50,405 bases of DNA from an uncultured Flavobacteriales bacterium (GTDB taxonomy: Bacteria; Bacteroidota; Bacteroidia; Flavobacteriales_G; Salibacteraceae): NCBI GenBank assembly GCA_937899835.1, contig CALCCE010000286.1, positions 1-50,405 of the forward strand, given 5' to 3'. This document shows, one piece after another, positions 29,686 to 34,347 of the stretch. Under the pieces are notes generated by a model. It worked only from the letters and a program-made list of their open reading frames with translations. It was not told the origin of the DNA and did no database searches. The translations under genes were made by a program, and so were the position numbers. Position 1 is the stretch's first letter. Every line of letters begins with the position of its first letter.

Positions 29686-30363
29686 ATGAAGTTGATTCTT
29701 GTTACCAGCCCCGATAAGTTTAAATCAGAAGTGGATACTGTTATTGAGCTTTTCGAGAAAGACTTGGAGCTGTTGCACTTGAGAAAGCCGGGTTTTTCAG
29801 AGAAAAGAATGACAGAGTACCTGCGGGCCATTCCTAAAAAGTACCACAACCGTATTGTGATTCATTCCCATTACAAACTCCTGGGAAAATTCAAGTTAAA
29901 AGGAATACACCTGAGCAGAAAGGAACGGAAGGTAAGCTTCTCTAATCGAATGAAGCTGGCGTGGATTCGATTGCGTCATCGCAACATCACCGTCTCTACC
30001 ACCTTTCACAACCTAATCAGCCTTACCGAAGATCAGCGAACCTTCTCTTACGTGTTTCTAAGTCCCATTTTCGATGGGATTTCAAAGCAAAGTCACGGGG
30101 GAGGTTTCAATGCCGATCAGTTGAAGAAAGCCTTGCGACATACTACCCAGCGAGTAGTTGGCATGGGAGGAATCAATTTACAACGCATTCCCTATATAAA
30201 GGAAACAGGATTTTATGGGGCTGCGCTATTGGGATCGGTGTGGAGCTCAGAAACGCCACCCGTAAAGGCCTACCTTGAAATGCATGACCTTTATTACAAT
30301 GGAGGCAACGCAACAGGAAGGATGGATATAAAGCCAGTCAAGATAGATCTGAAAGCGATCTGA
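29686..30363 (+). CDS. ThiE-like (thiamine phosphate synthase-family) protein
   Basis: The 225-residue product follows the TIM-barrel pattern of thiamine phosphate synthase and TenI: KLILVTSPD at the start, LELLHLRKPGFSEKRM near 28, RIVIHSHY near 56, FSYVFLSPIFDGISKQSHGG near 121, VVGMGGI near 156. ThiE couples the hydroxymethylpyrimidine and thiazole moieties to thiamine phosphate. Some expected polar active-site residues look changed and it carries a divergent C-terminal tail, so a TenI-like or other role is possible. It lies convergent to the riboswitch-controlled TonB receptor gene. That context supports a thiamine role, but catalysis is not proven. Confidence 0.75.
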   Translation: MKLILVTSPDKFKSEVDTVIELFEKDLELLHLRKPGFSEKRMTEYLRAIPKKYHNRIVIHSHYKLLGKFKLKGIHLSRKERKVSFSNRMKLAWIRLRHRNITVSTTFHNLISLTEDQRTFSYVFLSPIFDGISKQSHGGGFNADQLKKALRHTTQRVVGMGGINLQRIPYIKETGFYGAALLGSVWSSETPPVKAYLEMHDLYYNGGNATGRMDIKPVKIDLKAI

Positions 30364-30390
30364 TCTACCTCAACCAGCCTTTTCTTCTTT

Positions 30391-32784
30391 TTAAAACTTT
30401 AGGTTTAAGCCCAGCATGTAGTTGCGTCCGGCTTGTGGATAGTATCCCGAATCGGTAGTGATTTGATCGTTCAGGCTAAACCGGTAAGACCACGCGTTGG
30501 TTTCGTACTCTTCATCCAACACATTACGAATCATACCAATCACCTCGATTTCTTTGAAAATCAAGTTTTTGTAGCGGAATGTCAAACGCAAATCCTGAAC
30601 CAAATAGGGATCAATCACATGGTTAGAGTTTGAGGTATTGTCGATGAACTGTTCTCCAACGTATTTGGTCAATGCGGCTACTTCGAGCATTTTGTTTTCG
30701 GTAGAAGCGTTTAGCAAACGCATCACATCCAGCGTAATGGTGCTGGCCCCGATCACCGAAGGAGAAAATGCGATATCGGTATTGTTGTGTTGCACTTCTA
30801 CCTTGCCACCATTGTCAAAATCATCTACGAATTCGGTGAAACTCTCAATCTCGTTTTGGCTGAAGGTAGCATTCGCCGTCCAGCGCAAGCTGCTGGTAAA
30901 CTGGTATCCTCCTTCAATTTCAATGCCCCGTCGAAAGCTGTTGGGAATATTTACCCGGGTAGAAGCACCTACATCGTTGATGGCACCGGTGAGCACCAGC
31001 TGATTGTCGTATTGCATGTAGTACAAATTGACACCAATACGAGCACGGGTGAATTTTTGCTGAAAGCCCAATTCATAGTCGTATAACGTTTCGTGCTCCG
31101 GACGGCTGTCTGGCGATGACTCAGTAAAATCATCGCGATTGGGCTCCTTGTTGCCTACGGCAAAGGAGCCAAAAATGCGGGTATGGGCACCCAGGTCGTA
31201 GCTCAAACCAGCTTTTGGATTGAAAAAGTTCAGGTTAGCAGTTTGGGTAGCATCAGTTCCTTGAGCCGTCAACCCCAGGAAGGTATATTCGATGGTACGG
31301 TACTGCATGTCAGCAAAAAGGTTCAACTCTTTTGTCAACTGGTAGTTGGCTTTTGCATACGTGTTAAAGTCTGTTTTTTCTGCATCGTTGTCGTAGTAGA
31401 CGTACTCTGGAGTAGGAAACTGAGCACTCTGCGCCCAAATGACCTCGCCAAAATGGCGGCCCTCGTAGCGGTTCCAGCCCCCACCTACGATCAGTTGGAG
31501 TTTTTTGCCTGCATTGTAGGTAAAACTGTAAGTGGCTCCATAAAAATCGTTGTCCAACCACCGACGGCGAACGAGATCGGCCGTTTGCTCACTGGCAGTT
31601 AACCCGGTAGTGTCGATGCCATAATCCACAATGTCATCTGCTTCCCTGAATTGCTCAAAAAAGCCGCGTCCTTCGGTGTAGTGCAGTGCGGCTGAAAAAG
31701 TTAAGGGCTCTGCTAACTGCCGGGTAAACAACAACTGGTAATGACTTTGGGTATAATCGTCTACTTCGTTTTCGTAATCGTAAATGTTGTAGGTACGATT
31801 CGTGGCCAAAGAATCTTTGGGCACACCACCCCAAGCCTGGAAGGTGCGTTCCTGACCACCAAAGATGTTTACCCGAATGGAAGTTTTATCGTCAGAATAT
31901 GCTCCGGAAGTATAGAAAGACTGCAAGTCGGCACTGGCGCGGTCGATGTAACCATCCGAAGTAATGCTGGAAAGCCGTCCTTCGACCGTGAAGTGCTCAT
32001 TGAGCAAGCCTGAGCCGAAACTTACTGTGTTGCGCATGGTGTTGAATGAACCCACCGTATTGAGGATTTCTCCATAACTCTCTGGTTTCAGCTGGTTGGT
32101 TTGCAAGTTGATGGAACCCCCAAAAGCTCCCGCTCCATTGGTGGAGGTTCCCACACCGCGCTGAATCTGAATGTTGTCAGTAGAGGTAGCAAAGTCGGGC
32201 ATGTTGACCCAAAATACCCCATGCGATTCGGCATCGTTGAGTGGAATACCGTTGATGGTGATGTTGATGCGGGTAGGGTCGGTTCCCCGAATACGCAAGC
32301 CGGTATACCCAATACCGGTTCCGGCATCAGAAGTCACTACCAATGAAGGAGTTTGATCCAGCAAAAAAGGCAAATCTACACCTACGTTATTGGCTTCAAT
32401 GGCCTCTTTGTTGAGGTCGGTGTAGGCCATCGGAGTGTTTTCGTTGGCCCTGGTGGCAGAAACCACTACTTCATCGGTGACGAAGGCATCTGCTGGAAGT
32501 TGAAAATCGAGGGTTTGTTCTCCCCCCTCTAATTGTACCACTGCCTCCTGGGTTTGATAGCCCAAAAAGCGCGCAACCACAACGAATTCGCCAGCAGGTA
32601 AAGACCGCAATTGGTAATTTCCCTCGGCATTGACGGTGGTACCAATAATGGTTCCTTTAAGAAATACAACGGCTCCGGGCAACGGATTGCCTTGGTCATC
32701 CATCACCTTGCCAGAAAGACTCGCCTGGGCAAAAGAATAACTTGCCAATAAAATCAGCGCGAGCGAACTAATGAATCGAAACAT
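30391..32784 (-). CDS. TonB-dependent receptor under TPP riboswitch control (predicted thiamine uptake)
   Basis: The 797-residue receptor has a signal peptide (1-20, ASYSFAQ), a carboxypeptidase-regulatory-like domain (about 21-105, SGKVMDDQGNPLPGAVVFLK), a plug (about 115-225, with GLRIRGTDPTRINITINGIPLND) and a beta-barrel ending YMLGLNLKF. The regulatory region upstream is a TPP riboswitch, and TPP-controlled TonB receptors in Bacteroidota are predicted thiamine transporters of the outer membrane. I use ATG 32784 because it gives a normal signal peptide; the longer frame to 32823 adds 13 atypical residues. Substrate is inferred from the riboswitch, not from the protein sequence. Confidence 0.92.
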   Translation of the reverse strand: MFRFISSLALILLASYSFAQASLSGKVMDDQGNPLPGAVVFLKGTIIGTTVNAEGNYQLRSLPAGEFVVVARFLGYQTQEAVVQLEGGEQTLDFQLPADAFVTDEVVVSATRANENTPMAYTDLNKEAIEANNVGVDLPFLLDQTPSLVVTSDAGTGIGYTGLRIRGTDPTRINITINGIPLNDAESHGVFWVNMPDFATSTDNIQIQRGVGTSTNGAGAFGGSINLQTNQLKPESYGEILNTVGSFNTMRNTVSFGSGLLNEHFTVEGRLSSITSDGYIDRASADLQSFYTSGAYSDDKTSIRVNIFGGQERTFQAWGGVPKDSLATNRTYNIYDYENEVDDYTQSHYQLLFTRQLAEPLTFSAALHYTEGRGFFEQFREADDIVDYGIDTTGLTASEQTADLVRRRWLDNDFYGATYSFTYNAGKKLQLIVGGGWNRYEGRHFGEVIWAQSAQFPTPEYVYYDNDAEKTDFNTYAKANYQLTKELNLFADMQYRTIEYTFLGLTAQGTDATQTANLNFFNPKAGLSYDLGAHTRIFGSFAVGNKEPNRDDFTESSPDSRPEHETLYDYELGFQQKFTRARIGVNLYYMQYDNQLVLTGAINDVGASTRVNIPNSFRRGIEIEGGYQFTSSLRWTANATFSQNEIESFTEFVDDFDNGGKVEVQHNNTDIAFSPSVIGASTITLDVMRLLNASTENKMLEVAALTKYVGEQFIDNTSNSNHVIDPYLVQDLRLTFRYKNLIFKEIEVIGMIRNVLDEEYETNAWSYRFSLNDQITTDSGYYPQAGRNYMLGLNLKF

Positions 32785-32852
32785 AAAAAAATGATAAATA
32801 CAGGTTAAACCCAACCAGAACAAGGGGCTCGCCCTGGCTATTCTTGGTAACC

Positions 32853-32935
32853 TCTCCTCTCCCTTCCCGGCATTACCCGGGCAGGTTCGATGGGTATAAT
32901 CTCAGCCCTTATTTTGGGGCACCCCGTTGAGATGC
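32853..32935 (-). promoter_or_regulatory. TPP (THI-box) riboswitch
   Basis: Read on the minus strand the region has the conserved elements in the right order. These are GGGGTGCC (at 32925-32918), CTGAGAT (32905-32899), GAACCTG (32888-32882) and GGGTAATGCC (32878-32869), closed by a P1 helix with TCTC at the 5' and GAGA at the 3' side. The aptamer ends 68 bases before the receptor ATG. Bound TPP would lower expression of the TonB receptor, by a platform I cannot define with certainty. Confidence 0.96.
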
Positions 32936-32937
32936 GG

Positions 32938-32945
32938 CAAAAGTA
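32938..32945 (-). promoter_or_regulatory. -7 box just upstream of the TPP riboswitch
   Basis: The minus strand reads TACTTTTG, a perfect TAnnTTTG match. Transcription would begin near 32932, at the first base of the riboswitch P1 helix, so the receptor gene has its own promoter separate from the upstream kinase gene. Confidence 0.65.
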
Positions 32946-32956
32946 GAAATTCTTAC

Positions 32957-33475
32957 TTAGGAGAAAAACTGCTCCAAGGCCAATAATGCATTTTTCAGGC
33001 GTTCAGGCCCATTACCTGAAATTTTAGAGAAGGGGAACTGACGTTGTTGCAATTCATTATGGTATAATTCGTAAAGCTCTTTTCGATCTTTCGGGTTTTC
33101 GCGCAAGGGATCGGCTTCCCAGGGTAGGTCGATGTCGCACAGCAAGTAGTAATCGTAGGTATGTGCATCAACTAAATCAGCAACTTTAGGGTCGCTTTTC
33201 CCGAATTGAAATTCAGACCAAACTTTTACAACCAATGGGCCTGTATCACAAAAAAGCCAGTTTTTAGCTTGATTGAGTTGTAGTGTCTCTAGCTCTAACT
33301 GCTTTTCGGCAATGGGCAGTAGATCGTTGTAGTTATACGGCCGGCCCAATTGTGGAAGGAGTTCGCGTGCTATTTCGGCCACCCAACTGGTATTGAAATA
33401 CGTTGCCAGTTCTTTTGCCAGGGTTGTTTTGCCGGTTGATTCTGGGCCGGTCAATACTATTCTGCGTATGCTCAT
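32957..33475 (-). CDS. NadR-like P-loop kinase, candidate thiamine or nucleoside kinase
   Basis: The 172-residue protein has a P-loop GPESTGKTTLAKELA (9-23) and the pattern of the NadR C-terminal ribosylnicotinamide kinase domain: WVAEIARELLPQLGRPYNYND, LFCDTGPLVVKVWSEFQFG, YDYYLLCDIDLPWEADPLREN. It lacks the N-terminal adenylyltransferase domain of full NadR. NadR-type kinases phosphorylate nicotinamide riboside after import by PnuC. Here the gene follows a PnuC-like gene by 16 bases, but the surroundings (TPP riboswitch, YkoF-like and ThiE-like genes) point to thiamine. I infer a kinase that traps an imported vitamin; whether thiamine or nicotinamide riboside is open. Confidence 0.85.
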   Translation of the reverse strand: MSIRRIVLTGPESTGKTTLAKELATYFNTSWVAEIARELLPQLGRPYNYNDLLPIAEKQLELETLQLNQAKNWLFCDTGPLVVKVWSEFQFGKSDPKVADLVDAHTYDYYLLCDIDLPWEADPLRENPKDRKELYELYHNELQQRQFPFSKISGNGPERLKNALLALEQFFS

Positions 33476-33491
33476 TGTCGCTCTACTCTAC

Positions 33492-34082
33492 TCAAACCTG
33501 AGGTGCCAACTTCATTTGCTGGTTCCACCGCCACCATGCTACGAAGGCCAAAAAGAAATACGCTACAAAGAGCACCATGGTGAAAGGCAAGCCTTTTAAA
33601 TAATACACATAGGCGGCCACTGCATCAATCACCATCCAGTAAAGCCAGTTTTCTACTACTTTTTGAATCAGCATGAAAGTGGTGATAACACTAAATACAG
33701 TGGTGAAGGCATCCCAGTATGGGAGGGCATTTCCAAACTTTTCGGAGGCCATGCCCGCCAGAAGGGTAAGCAATGCTCCGCCTCCCAGTACCGTAAGGTG
33801 AAACTTCCAGCCTTTGCTTTTGATCGGGCCAGCAGTGTCTTTTTTATGCCAACGAACCCAACCAACGATGCCCATTACTACATAAAAGAGGTTGAGCACT
33901 GAATCGAGGTACAGTTGAACGTTTCCCAATACAATGGCGAAAATAAGCGAGCTAAGTATGCCTGCTGACCAACACCAAATAGAAGGTATAGCGGCTAATA
34001 CAATGTAGGCTACTGCCAATGCCACCGCTACCACTTCAAACCAACGGTAGGCAGTAAATTCTTTAAGAACGGCTTCCAGCAC
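33492..34082 (-). CDS. PnuC-family vitamin transporter (PnuT-like)
   Basis: The 196-residue membrane protein has about seven hydrophobic segments and the PnuC hallmark in its second half, ENWLYWMVIDAVAAYVYYLKGL near 144-165, with earlier LNLFYVVMGIVGWVRWHK near 63-80. PnuC proteins carry nicotinamide riboside by facilitated diffusion and rely on phosphorylation inside the cell; the PnuT subgroup is linked to thiamine. Subgroup cannot be fixed by eye, but the neighbours (YkoF-like gene 10 bases upstream, TPP riboswitch downstream) favour thiamine. The downstream kinase gene would provide the trapping step. Confidence 0.9.
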   Translation of the reverse strand: MLEAVLKEFTAYRWFEVVAVALAVAYIVLAAIPSIWCWSAGILSSLIFAIVLGNVQLYLDSVLNLFYVVMGIVGWVRWHKKDTAGPIKSKGWKFHLTVLGGGALLTLLAGMASEKFGNALPYWDAFTTVFSVITTFMLIQKVVENWLYWMVIDAVAAYVYYLKGLPFTMVLFVAYFFLAFVAWWRWNQQMKLAPQV

Positions 34083-34092
34083 GACTGCGTAA

Positions 34093-34347
34093 TTAATCGG
34101 TGGGACGAAGGTCGTTGTTGATGAATTTCATCACCATGATGCTGTGAGGGATTTCTTCGAACGTTGCGCCCATCGATTCGGTGATGGCTTGCATTAATGC
34201 ACCATATTCTCCGAAAACCTGGGTGCTCATGGTGTTTGTGATCACCTGTAGGTCAGGGTATCGGTTCAGGCGTTCAATGAATGCCAGAATGGGTCCTTCG
34301 TAAGCTTCACGCAGCGGATACATGCTAATTTCCACAGAGGTTTTCAT
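34093..34347 (-). CDS. Single-domain YkoF/MTH1187-like thiamine-binding protein
   Basis: The 84-residue product fits the ferredoxin-like fold of the YkoF/MTH1187 families: VEISMYPLREAYEGPILAFI at the start, then VITNTMSTQVFGEYGALMQAI and a final strand IMVMKFINND. YkoF of Bacillus binds thiamine or hydroxymethylpyrimidine with a duplicated domain; this protein carries a single copy and may form dimers. It is the first gene of a tight run with the PnuC-like and NadR-like genes, so it may present or sense the imported vitamin in the cytoplasm. Family assignment is moderate because these domains are short. Confidence 0.7.
   Translation of the reverse strand: MKTSVEISMYPLREAYEGPILAFIERLNRYPDLQVITNTMSTQVFGEYGALMQAITESMGATFEEIPHSIMVMKFINNDLRPTD

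Follow-up and report, generated by a model that had tools for sequence, protein, structure and literature searches.

By which enzyme is imported thiamine activated in a bacterium in whose genome neither thiamine pyrophosphokinase (TPK; PF04263) nor ThiC is found? The question is raised by a locus at positions 29,686 to 34,347 of contig CALCCE010000286.1 (assembly GCA_937899835.1), from an uncultured Flavobacteriales bacterium of the Salibacteraceae, class Bacteroidia. The whole analyzed stretch of 50,405 nucleotides is called the window here; the genome to which it belongs comprises 6.9 Mb in 307 contigs and is 98% complete. The locus holds a TonB-dependent receptor gene preceded by a thiamine pyrophosphate (TPP) riboswitch and, next to it, a cluster of three genes for a YkoF-like protein, a PnuC-family carrier and a stand-alone P-loop kinase resembling the kinase half of NadR. 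An earlier note on this DNA, made from the sequence alone, had described these parts as a thiamine salvage locus; every part was found where it had been placed, and the gaps within the cluster are 10 and 16 bases, as claimed. The cluster recurs in relatives, hence its grouping is not due to chance. Judging from the comparison of genomes described below, the kinase is likely a thiamine kinase, which would form thiamine monophosphate (TMP) and trap imported thiamine in place of TPK.

The proposed route begins with the TonB receptor, which would carry thiamine over the outer membrane and be shut off by TPP via the riboswitch. The PnuC-family carrier, read as PnuT, would then equilibrate thiamine across the inner membrane, and the NadR-like kinase would phosphorylate it to TMP, which could not exit. 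ThiL, encoded elsewhere in the genome, would finally turn TMP into TPP, and the YkoF-like protein may pass bound thiamine to the kinase. No part of an ATP-binding cassette or energy-coupling factor transporter was found among the nine window proteins scanned with Pfam.

Distribution of the kinase and of thiamine enzymes

The phylogenetic profile covers 99 genomes from 62 genera, i.e. the window's genome with 40 relatives and 58 further class members drawn from a sample of the phylum. A stand-alone kinase is present in 66 genomes, a form fused to DUF4301 in 12, TPK in 20, ThiC in 30 and ThiL in all 99. Stand-alone kinase and TPK never occur together: 66 genomes possess only the former of the two, 20 only the latter and 13 neither (Fisher test, which ignores descent: p 1e-12 by genome, 3e-5 by genus). 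ThiC accompanies the stand-alone kinase in five of 66 genomes (G001, G014, G042, G128, G222), and 61 genomes contain this kinase without ThiC and TPK. The fused form coexists with TPK in 11 of its 12 genomes. Neither kinase, fusion, TPK nor ThiC was found in G019, G020 and G022 (83, 91 and 83% complete). The stand-alone count includes a 498-residue open frame of G112. Five genomes from outside the class (G207, G247, G255, G223, G136) in the 63-genome searches were dropped, their kinase domains lying outside the clade; as these genomes showed neither TPK nor ThiC, including them would add kinase-like genomes without TPK. Furthermore, TPK was found in none of 46 further kinase genomes behind named loci, whose completeness is unknown and in which ThiC was not searched. 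Thirteen of their kinases are in the tree presented below, all in its 49-row group; L102, L104 and L105 were excluded from this TPK search.

ThiL converts TMP to TPP, and TMP arises either via ThiE, which joins the two precursors, or through a thiamine kinase. In the 61 kinase genomes without ThiC and TPK, ThiE reaches at least 85 bits in 10, gives weak or partial matches below 60 bits in 17 and has no match in 34. According to these scores, 51 of the 61 have no TMP source among those searched for that could feed ThiL, unless the kinase supplies it; YjbQ, which excerpts of PMC5613172 name beside ThiE, was not searched, and ThiD, ThiM, TenA and Thi5 were looked for in the window's genome at most. 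ThiK (TIGR02721) is above its cut-off in none of 80 genomes, namely 66 with a kinase but neither ThiC nor TPK (a figure that includes one fused kinase and four from outside the clade) plus 14 others; weak matches of 21-56 bits occur in 13 of the 80 (maximum 55.7, cut-off 299). Since one of 14 named control genomes passes this cut-off, the search detects close ThiK only.

Control for shared descent

The influence of shared descent was examined on a ThiL tree of 60 genomes from 57 genera. Five genera were left out; G028, G124 and G182 were added, and because these differ in state from their genus-mates, their inclusion favors the finding of switches. The tree requires 13 changes for the kinase, 6 for TPK and 14 for ThiC. 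When independent pairs are drawn across all branches of the best tree (custom pairing script), stand-alone kinase and TPK change the same way in no pair and in opposite ways in six (p 0.03). The corresponding numbers are mostly 0 and 9 for ThiC, with 1 same-way pair in some pairings, and 0 and 9-12 for TPK or ThiC over 300 pairings (the most frequent results have p of about 0.001 or lower). Counting the fused form as kinase yields 0 and 5 for TPK (p 0.06), mostly 0 and 9 for ThiC, and 0 and 8-11 for either. One genus contains a clear switch: G026 has the kinase and lacks ThiC, G028 has ThiC and lacks the kinase, and their ThiL are nearly identical.

Gene neighborhoods

Neighborhoods of the kinase were compared in three locus sets with flanks of varying length: a nearest set (the window and 27 loci), a class set (37 loci, two of them outside the clade and six fused) and a genome-contig set (48 of 49 loci; L105 is left out, and the NadR-type L102 and the fragment L104 are included). 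Riboswitches in other loci were found with model R1, built from 18 such sequences including the window's. In the nearest set, 14 of 28 kinase genes adjoin a PnuC-family gene, nine have a YkoF gene within 1.5 kb and 20 a receptor gene; a riboswitch lies at most 400 bases downstream in 19 and anywhere in the stretch in 21. Eleven of the 28 loci combine the kinase with a riboswitch or YkoF and have no PnuC in the stretch, one of which, L034, ends 131 bases upstream; the link to thiamine is thus independent of the PnuC name. The class set contains PnuC in 28, YkoF in 7, a riboswitch in 14 and a receptor in 15 of its 37 loci, and the genome-contig set PnuC in 33, YkoF in 15, and riboswitch and receptor in 1 each. 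The link to the riboswitch is hence strong among loci close to the window; for the genome-contig set it is weak, and there the pointers to thiamine are YkoF and the missing TPK.

NadR-type loci (L178-L181, L185-L194) have a PnuC-family neighbor in 13 of 14 cases, the same pair of folds forming a second cassette there; in none of the 14 was a TPP riboswitch found (for ten, the flank measures only about 2.5 kb). Both NadR halves were tested with models in four of these loci, the rest being judged from length; L178 lacks most of the adenylyltransferase half. A NadR-type protein and the kinase occur together in six genomes (G089, G112, G186, G222, G226, and G242 with the fused form), in five of which NadR adjoins a PnuC gene. 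No full NadR was detected in the window's genome, where the kinase was.

Taken together, the reading as thiamine uptake and trapping is supported by the riboswitch near the kinase in 21 of 28 loci, by the lack of any genome that has both the stand-alone kinase and TPK and by the rarity of ThiC beside this kinase (5/66).

Sequence and phylogeny of the kinase

The likeness to NadR noticed in the earlier note holds at the levels of both sequence and structure: in addition to the AAA_28 match (134 bits), the nearest PDB sequences and folds are NadR, and the predicted model (mean predicted local distance difference test score, pLDDT, 95) matches NadR 8x7f. The P-loop kinase half is present with Walker A GPESTGKT and Walker B FCDT, and an alignment of 29 kinases contains invariant residues. 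With 172 residues, the protein has no nicotinamide mononucleotide (NMN) adenylyltransferase domain and hence not the two-domain architecture of NadR. The NCBIfam NadR models match it over their kinase half only and far under cut-off; TIGR01526 covers it at model positions 163-320 of 325 with 86.7 bits, and its cut-off of 341 is no test alone, because the two-half proteins L180, L188 and L190 score 181-235. A simple residue signature separating the kinase from NadR was considered and dropped, as the lid stretch D-x-x-R-E/D also occurs in some NadR. L102, on a contig labelled Candidatus Buchananbacteria, encodes a NadR-like protein with the kinase-type lid D-x-x-R-E, 608 bases from a PnuC-family match.

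The kinase tree contains 78 rows chosen from 129 kinase domains of the fetched loci: the window's kinase, all NadR-type and fused sequences, and 55 other stand-alone ones. It is a quick tree whose root is unknown. A starred group (98) unites 49 of the 56 stand-alone rows, among them the window's kinase. Another (99) consists of three stand-alone and seven fused rows, all of family code f16. The remaining four stand-alone rows, which come from genomes outside the class (G207, G223, G247, G255), are placed with NadR and excluded from membership. The NadR kinase halves lie elsewhere in the tree, four of them making up a separate starred group. As the tree leaves the branching order of the 49-row, the f16 and the four-row NadR groups unresolved, a single origin of the thiamine-linked kinases is not established. 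The stand-alone label requires 5 changes on this tree. Among the named loci, the kinase relatives are mostly from Bacteroidota, 26 of 49 being labelled Bacteroidales.

The fused kinase is an open frame of 733-800 residues. In f16 genomes the kinase is either fused to DUF4301 (L145-L148, L183) or followed directly downstream by a DUF4301 gene (L152, L169, L176, L184); Pfam PF14134 gives 669 bits in L146 and 730 in L176. The open frame of L197 has the fused length. In the openly licensed literature searched, DUF4301 is mentioned in a single paper.

Points against a thiamine kinase and alternative functions

What is more challenging is the carrier. Its membership of the PnuC family is secure (PF04973, 151 bits), and it matches structure 4qtn (E 3e-5). 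A clean split between thiamine and nicotinamide riboside (NR) carriers was looked for in a tree of 90 rows and not found. The window carrier has a long branch (1.46), and its placement is therefore unsure; it groups with kinase-linked carriers only, in a starred set of 15 rows, and the 48 rows outside the wider set described below are kinase-linked too. Some kinase-linked carriers (families f13, f17 and f21, and L070) fall into NadR-linked groups, and three of those so placed, L154, L157 and L166, have a TPP riboswitch nearby. Because of these mixed groups, carrier specificity is not readable from the tree. The clustering of the pair with NR systems, named beforehand as a finding that would speak against a role in thiamine salvage, is not seen for the kinase, which stands apart from NadR, and the carrier is not separated from these systems.

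Several observations weigh against a thiamine kinase. The model TIGR01528, named PnuC (nicotinamide riboside transporter), scores the carrier with 65.7 bits, over its cut-off of 42.45, and the 15-row set is nested in a larger starred one of 42 rows, which includes every one of the 13 NadR-linked carriers. The division of the kinases into two types, stand-alone and fused, was chosen with the data already in view; if the fused form is counted in, TPK occurs in 11 of 78 kinase genomes and in 9 of 21 others (p 0.01), and ThiC in 14 of 78 and 16 of 21 (p 1e-6). Starred branches of the ThiL tree alone give five independent pairs, too few to reach 0.05; among these, TPK is opposite to the kinase in two or three and never changes the same way. 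A riboswitch is nearby in only 1 of 48 genome-contig loci, and 11 of the 48, L102 and L104 among them, have no PnuC (within 300 bases), YkoF or riboswitch. Genomes with TPK retain ThiL as well, including three (G040, G182, G258) in which neither ThiC nor a ThiE match was found. Finally, the window's genome contains a row of ThiM, ThiE and ThiD on another contig, C87 (L201:8787-11066), a precursor-salvage cluster through which it could also make TMP. ThiM and ThiD exceed their cut-offs, ThiE scores 219 bits (cut-off 145), and no TPP riboswitch was found in the 19.9-kb stretch around them.

The exclusion between stand-alone kinase and TPK (0/66 and 0/46) would also fit a one-step pyrophosphokinase that makes TPP directly from thiamine, a true substitute for TPK, with ThiL as a leftover or serving other TMP. 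Universal ThiL does not reveal the product: given its retention in TPK genomes, its presence does not decide between TMP and TPP, and it was dropped as proof of a TMP product. We nevertheless consider such an enzyme improbable. The kinase half of NadR yields a monophosphate, NMN from NR, according to excerpts of PMC7221760, and ThiL would be dispensable in the 51 genomes without ThiE of at least 85 bits, yet all of these retain it, as do the three TPK genomes without ThiC and ThiE.

The kinase and carrier could also be an NR salvage pair, PnuC with a kinase-only NadR, that stands beside a thiamine receptor by chance. Both proteins match models named after NR, the window carrier shares its 42-row set with all NadR-linked carriers, no full NadR was detected in this genome, and PnuC-kinase pairs are common (33) in the same genome-contig set that has a single riboswitch. 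Such an NR pair is quite improbable all the same: it gives no reason for the exclusion with TPK and ThiC, the kinase clade lies apart from NadR, five of the six genomes with both types carry NadR and an adjacent PnuC as a second cassette, and in 31 of 113 loci overall YkoF lies no more than 1.5 kb from the kinase. A thiamine kinase is hence the reading that we retain.

Riboswitch and transcription units

The coordinates of the parts are given in Table 1. The riboswitch, which starts twenty bases past the kinase gene, is the sole RF00059 match in the genome. Its score is below the Rfam gathering score of 54.3, for which reason the default scan of the window gave no riboswitch; instead of this curated score, the call draws on the E-value, a match over the full length of the model, the position and the recurrence with 17 others. 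Model R1, for which the window is one of the training sequences, gives 87.9 bits at 32853-32937. The pairing of riboswitch and receptor recurs in relatives; the receptor shows the CarboxypepD_reg, plug and barrel domains in the Pfam scan.

Table 1. Parts of the locus, in order along the minus strand, and the evidence for each
Feature	Coordinates	Strand	Evidence
One-domain YkoF/MTH1187-type (Thiamine_BP-like) protein, 84 aa	34093..34347	-	weak Pfam score, predicted fold, 26-sequence alignment
PnuC-family carrier, read as PnuT (thiamine facilitator), GTG start	33492..34082	-	PF04973 151 bits
Stand-alone P-loop kinase like the ribosylnicotinamide kinase (RNK) half of NadR, 172 aa; predicted thiamine kinase	32957..33475	-	AAA_28 134 bits
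TACTTTTG, Bacteroidota-type -7 promoter element (TAnnTTTG), directly 5' of riboswitch	32938..32945	-	motif match
TPP riboswitch, leader of TonB receptor	32842..32936	-	RF00059 50.4 bits, E 1.7e-8
TonB-dependent receptor (OMthi/Omr1-like)	about 30391..32787, start = signal-peptide ATG	-	Pfam CarbopepD_reg_2, Plug, TonB_dep_Rec_b-barrel
TenI-like protein (TMP-TENI family), convergent to receptor	29686..30363	+	PF02581 58.6 bits

Of 36 riboswitches, several of which are close relatives of one another, 28 have the motif TAnnTTTG, the -7 box of Bacteroidota, 20-110 bases 5' of their CTGAGA core (2.0 expected by letter shuffling); nine of the 36 also have a TTG 17-21 bases further upstream (0.16 expected). 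The window element TACTTTTG at 32945-32938 has no TTG at this distance. Because this promoter-like element precedes the riboswitch, the receptor with its riboswitch looks like a transcription unit of its own, with the three-gene unit outside it. Control of the three genes by this riboswitch was considered and dropped, since the riboswitch sits downstream of them with its own promoter-like element. The locus had been called riboswitch-controlled; a TPP riboswitch is indeed present, but it lies between kinase and receptor and probably governs the receptor only, with the polarity suggested above. A sigma-70 promoter scan (6 found, 7.3 expected) and a terminator scan (8 found, 5.6 expected) were dropped.

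YkoF-like and TenI-like proteins

Pfam Thiamine_BP (PF01910) gives the YkoF-like protein 17.5 bits, under the cut-off of 24.9. Its description as a one-domain YkoF-like protein is borne out by the predicted fold: an AlphaFold model from 26 family members (mean pLDDT 91) has the ferredoxin-like fold of the PF01910 family. With Foldseek, it matches 2eky (E 3.7e-7), 1vk8 and 1lxn, and more weakly the thiamin-bound YkoF 1sbr (E 0.006), in agreement with the folds of MJ1052, SP2199, TM0486 and MTH1187 (VIA Z 11.6 to TM0486, 1vk8). The protein probably binds thiamine in the cytoplasm; the likeness in fold is by itself no proof of function.

The TMP-TENI family protein had been called ThiE-like, which the scores contradict. 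TIGR00693 (ThiE) gives it 40.3 bits against a cut-off of 145.1, and the structure that it matches best is 3ceu (E 6e-30), presumably TenI of Bacteroides thetaiotaomicron, followed by TenI 1yad; with the true ThiE elsewhere in the genome, an assignment as ThiE was rejected. Where the genome's own ThiE has QLREK and LIND, the locus protein has HLRKP and VIHS. A TenI-like gene is found in 10 of the 28 nearest loci, in two of these just upstream of PnuT and kinase; in the window it adjoins a thiamine receptor in a genome where ThiC was not found. That the substrate of the kinase is a thiamine precursor, either hydroxyethylthiazole or hydroxymethylpyrimidine (HMP), with the TenI/ThiE-like protein joining the halves, could draw on this gene at the locus and its place just before PnuT in two loci, as well as on the fact that YkoF-type proteins bind thiamine or HMP, yet it is highly unlikely, because ThiM and ThiD, already present above their cut-offs, argue against the kinase doing their work, ThiE of at least 85 bits is wanting in 51 of the 61 kinase genomes without ThiC and TPK, and the QLREK and ND stretches seen in the genome's ThiE are missing from the locus protein. 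In B. thetaiotaomicron, tenI closes the thiamine synthesis operon, according to excerpts of PMC5613172.

Relation to known systems and significance

The locus is a variant of the known OMthi-PnuT-Tnr3 salvage system, and the kinase family is its point of interest. Tnr3 is a member of the TPK family. Excerpts of PMC5613172 place OMthi, PnuT and Tnr3 of B. thetaiotaomicron in TPP-riboswitch operons, the carrier itself being under such a riboswitch; in the window, the receptor alone has a riboswitch before it. Common to both are a riboswitch-preceded TonB receptor, a PnuC-family carrier and, beside the carrier, a gene for a thiamine-phosphorylating enzyme, which is here predicted. The window differs in having a NadR-RNK-like kinase in the place of Tnr3, with no TPK found in the genome, and in the added YkoF-type protein.

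NadR traps NR that enters via PnuC, as described in excerpts of PMC7221760. The kinase and carrier folds and the use of phosphorylation for metabolic trapping are alike in both cases; the window kinase differs from NadR by the missing NMN-adenylyltransferase half, its separate clade, the association of its family with TPP riboswitches and YkoF, and the exclusion of TPK. As the scheme of carrier plus trapping kinase is already known, the kinase is the new part. With YkoF, TM0486 and MTH1187 (PF01910), the small protein shares the predicted fold over its whole chain, differing as a single short domain that scores below the cut-off. ThiK would share the proposed reaction and belongs to another family, presumably of a different fold, with no above-cut-off match in the 80 genomes. 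For the last step, Table 1 of PMC6593275 gives ThiL/ThiN, and excerpts of its text name ThiK, ThiM and ThiN as salvage enzymes. No NadR-like thiamine kinase is described in the openly licensed literature searched, and an earlier prediction in print is possible; the addition of kinase and YkoF-like protein, unfamiliar to the author of the earlier note, is therefore new to this literature as far as the kinase goes, and the overall scheme is not.

On balance, and with somewhat less confidence than for the window's kinase itself, we favor the view that kinase-only relatives of NadR constitute a third thiamine-activating family besides TPK/ThiN and ThiK. This family would be the main one in the thiamine auxotrophs of the class, would close the gap between imported thiamine and ThiL, and would be fused to DUF4301 in one lineage. 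If so, DUF4301 would be tied to thiamine metabolism. The exchange of vitamin B1 shapes microbial communities, and predicting who needs and uses it depends on knowing the enzymes. If the kinase acts as proposed, many genomes of the class would gain a full path leading from thiamine import to TPP, a testable function would be assigned to proteins that currently match nicotinamide riboside models, and the same kinase fold would have been recruited by carrier-plus-kinase trapping for a second vitamin.

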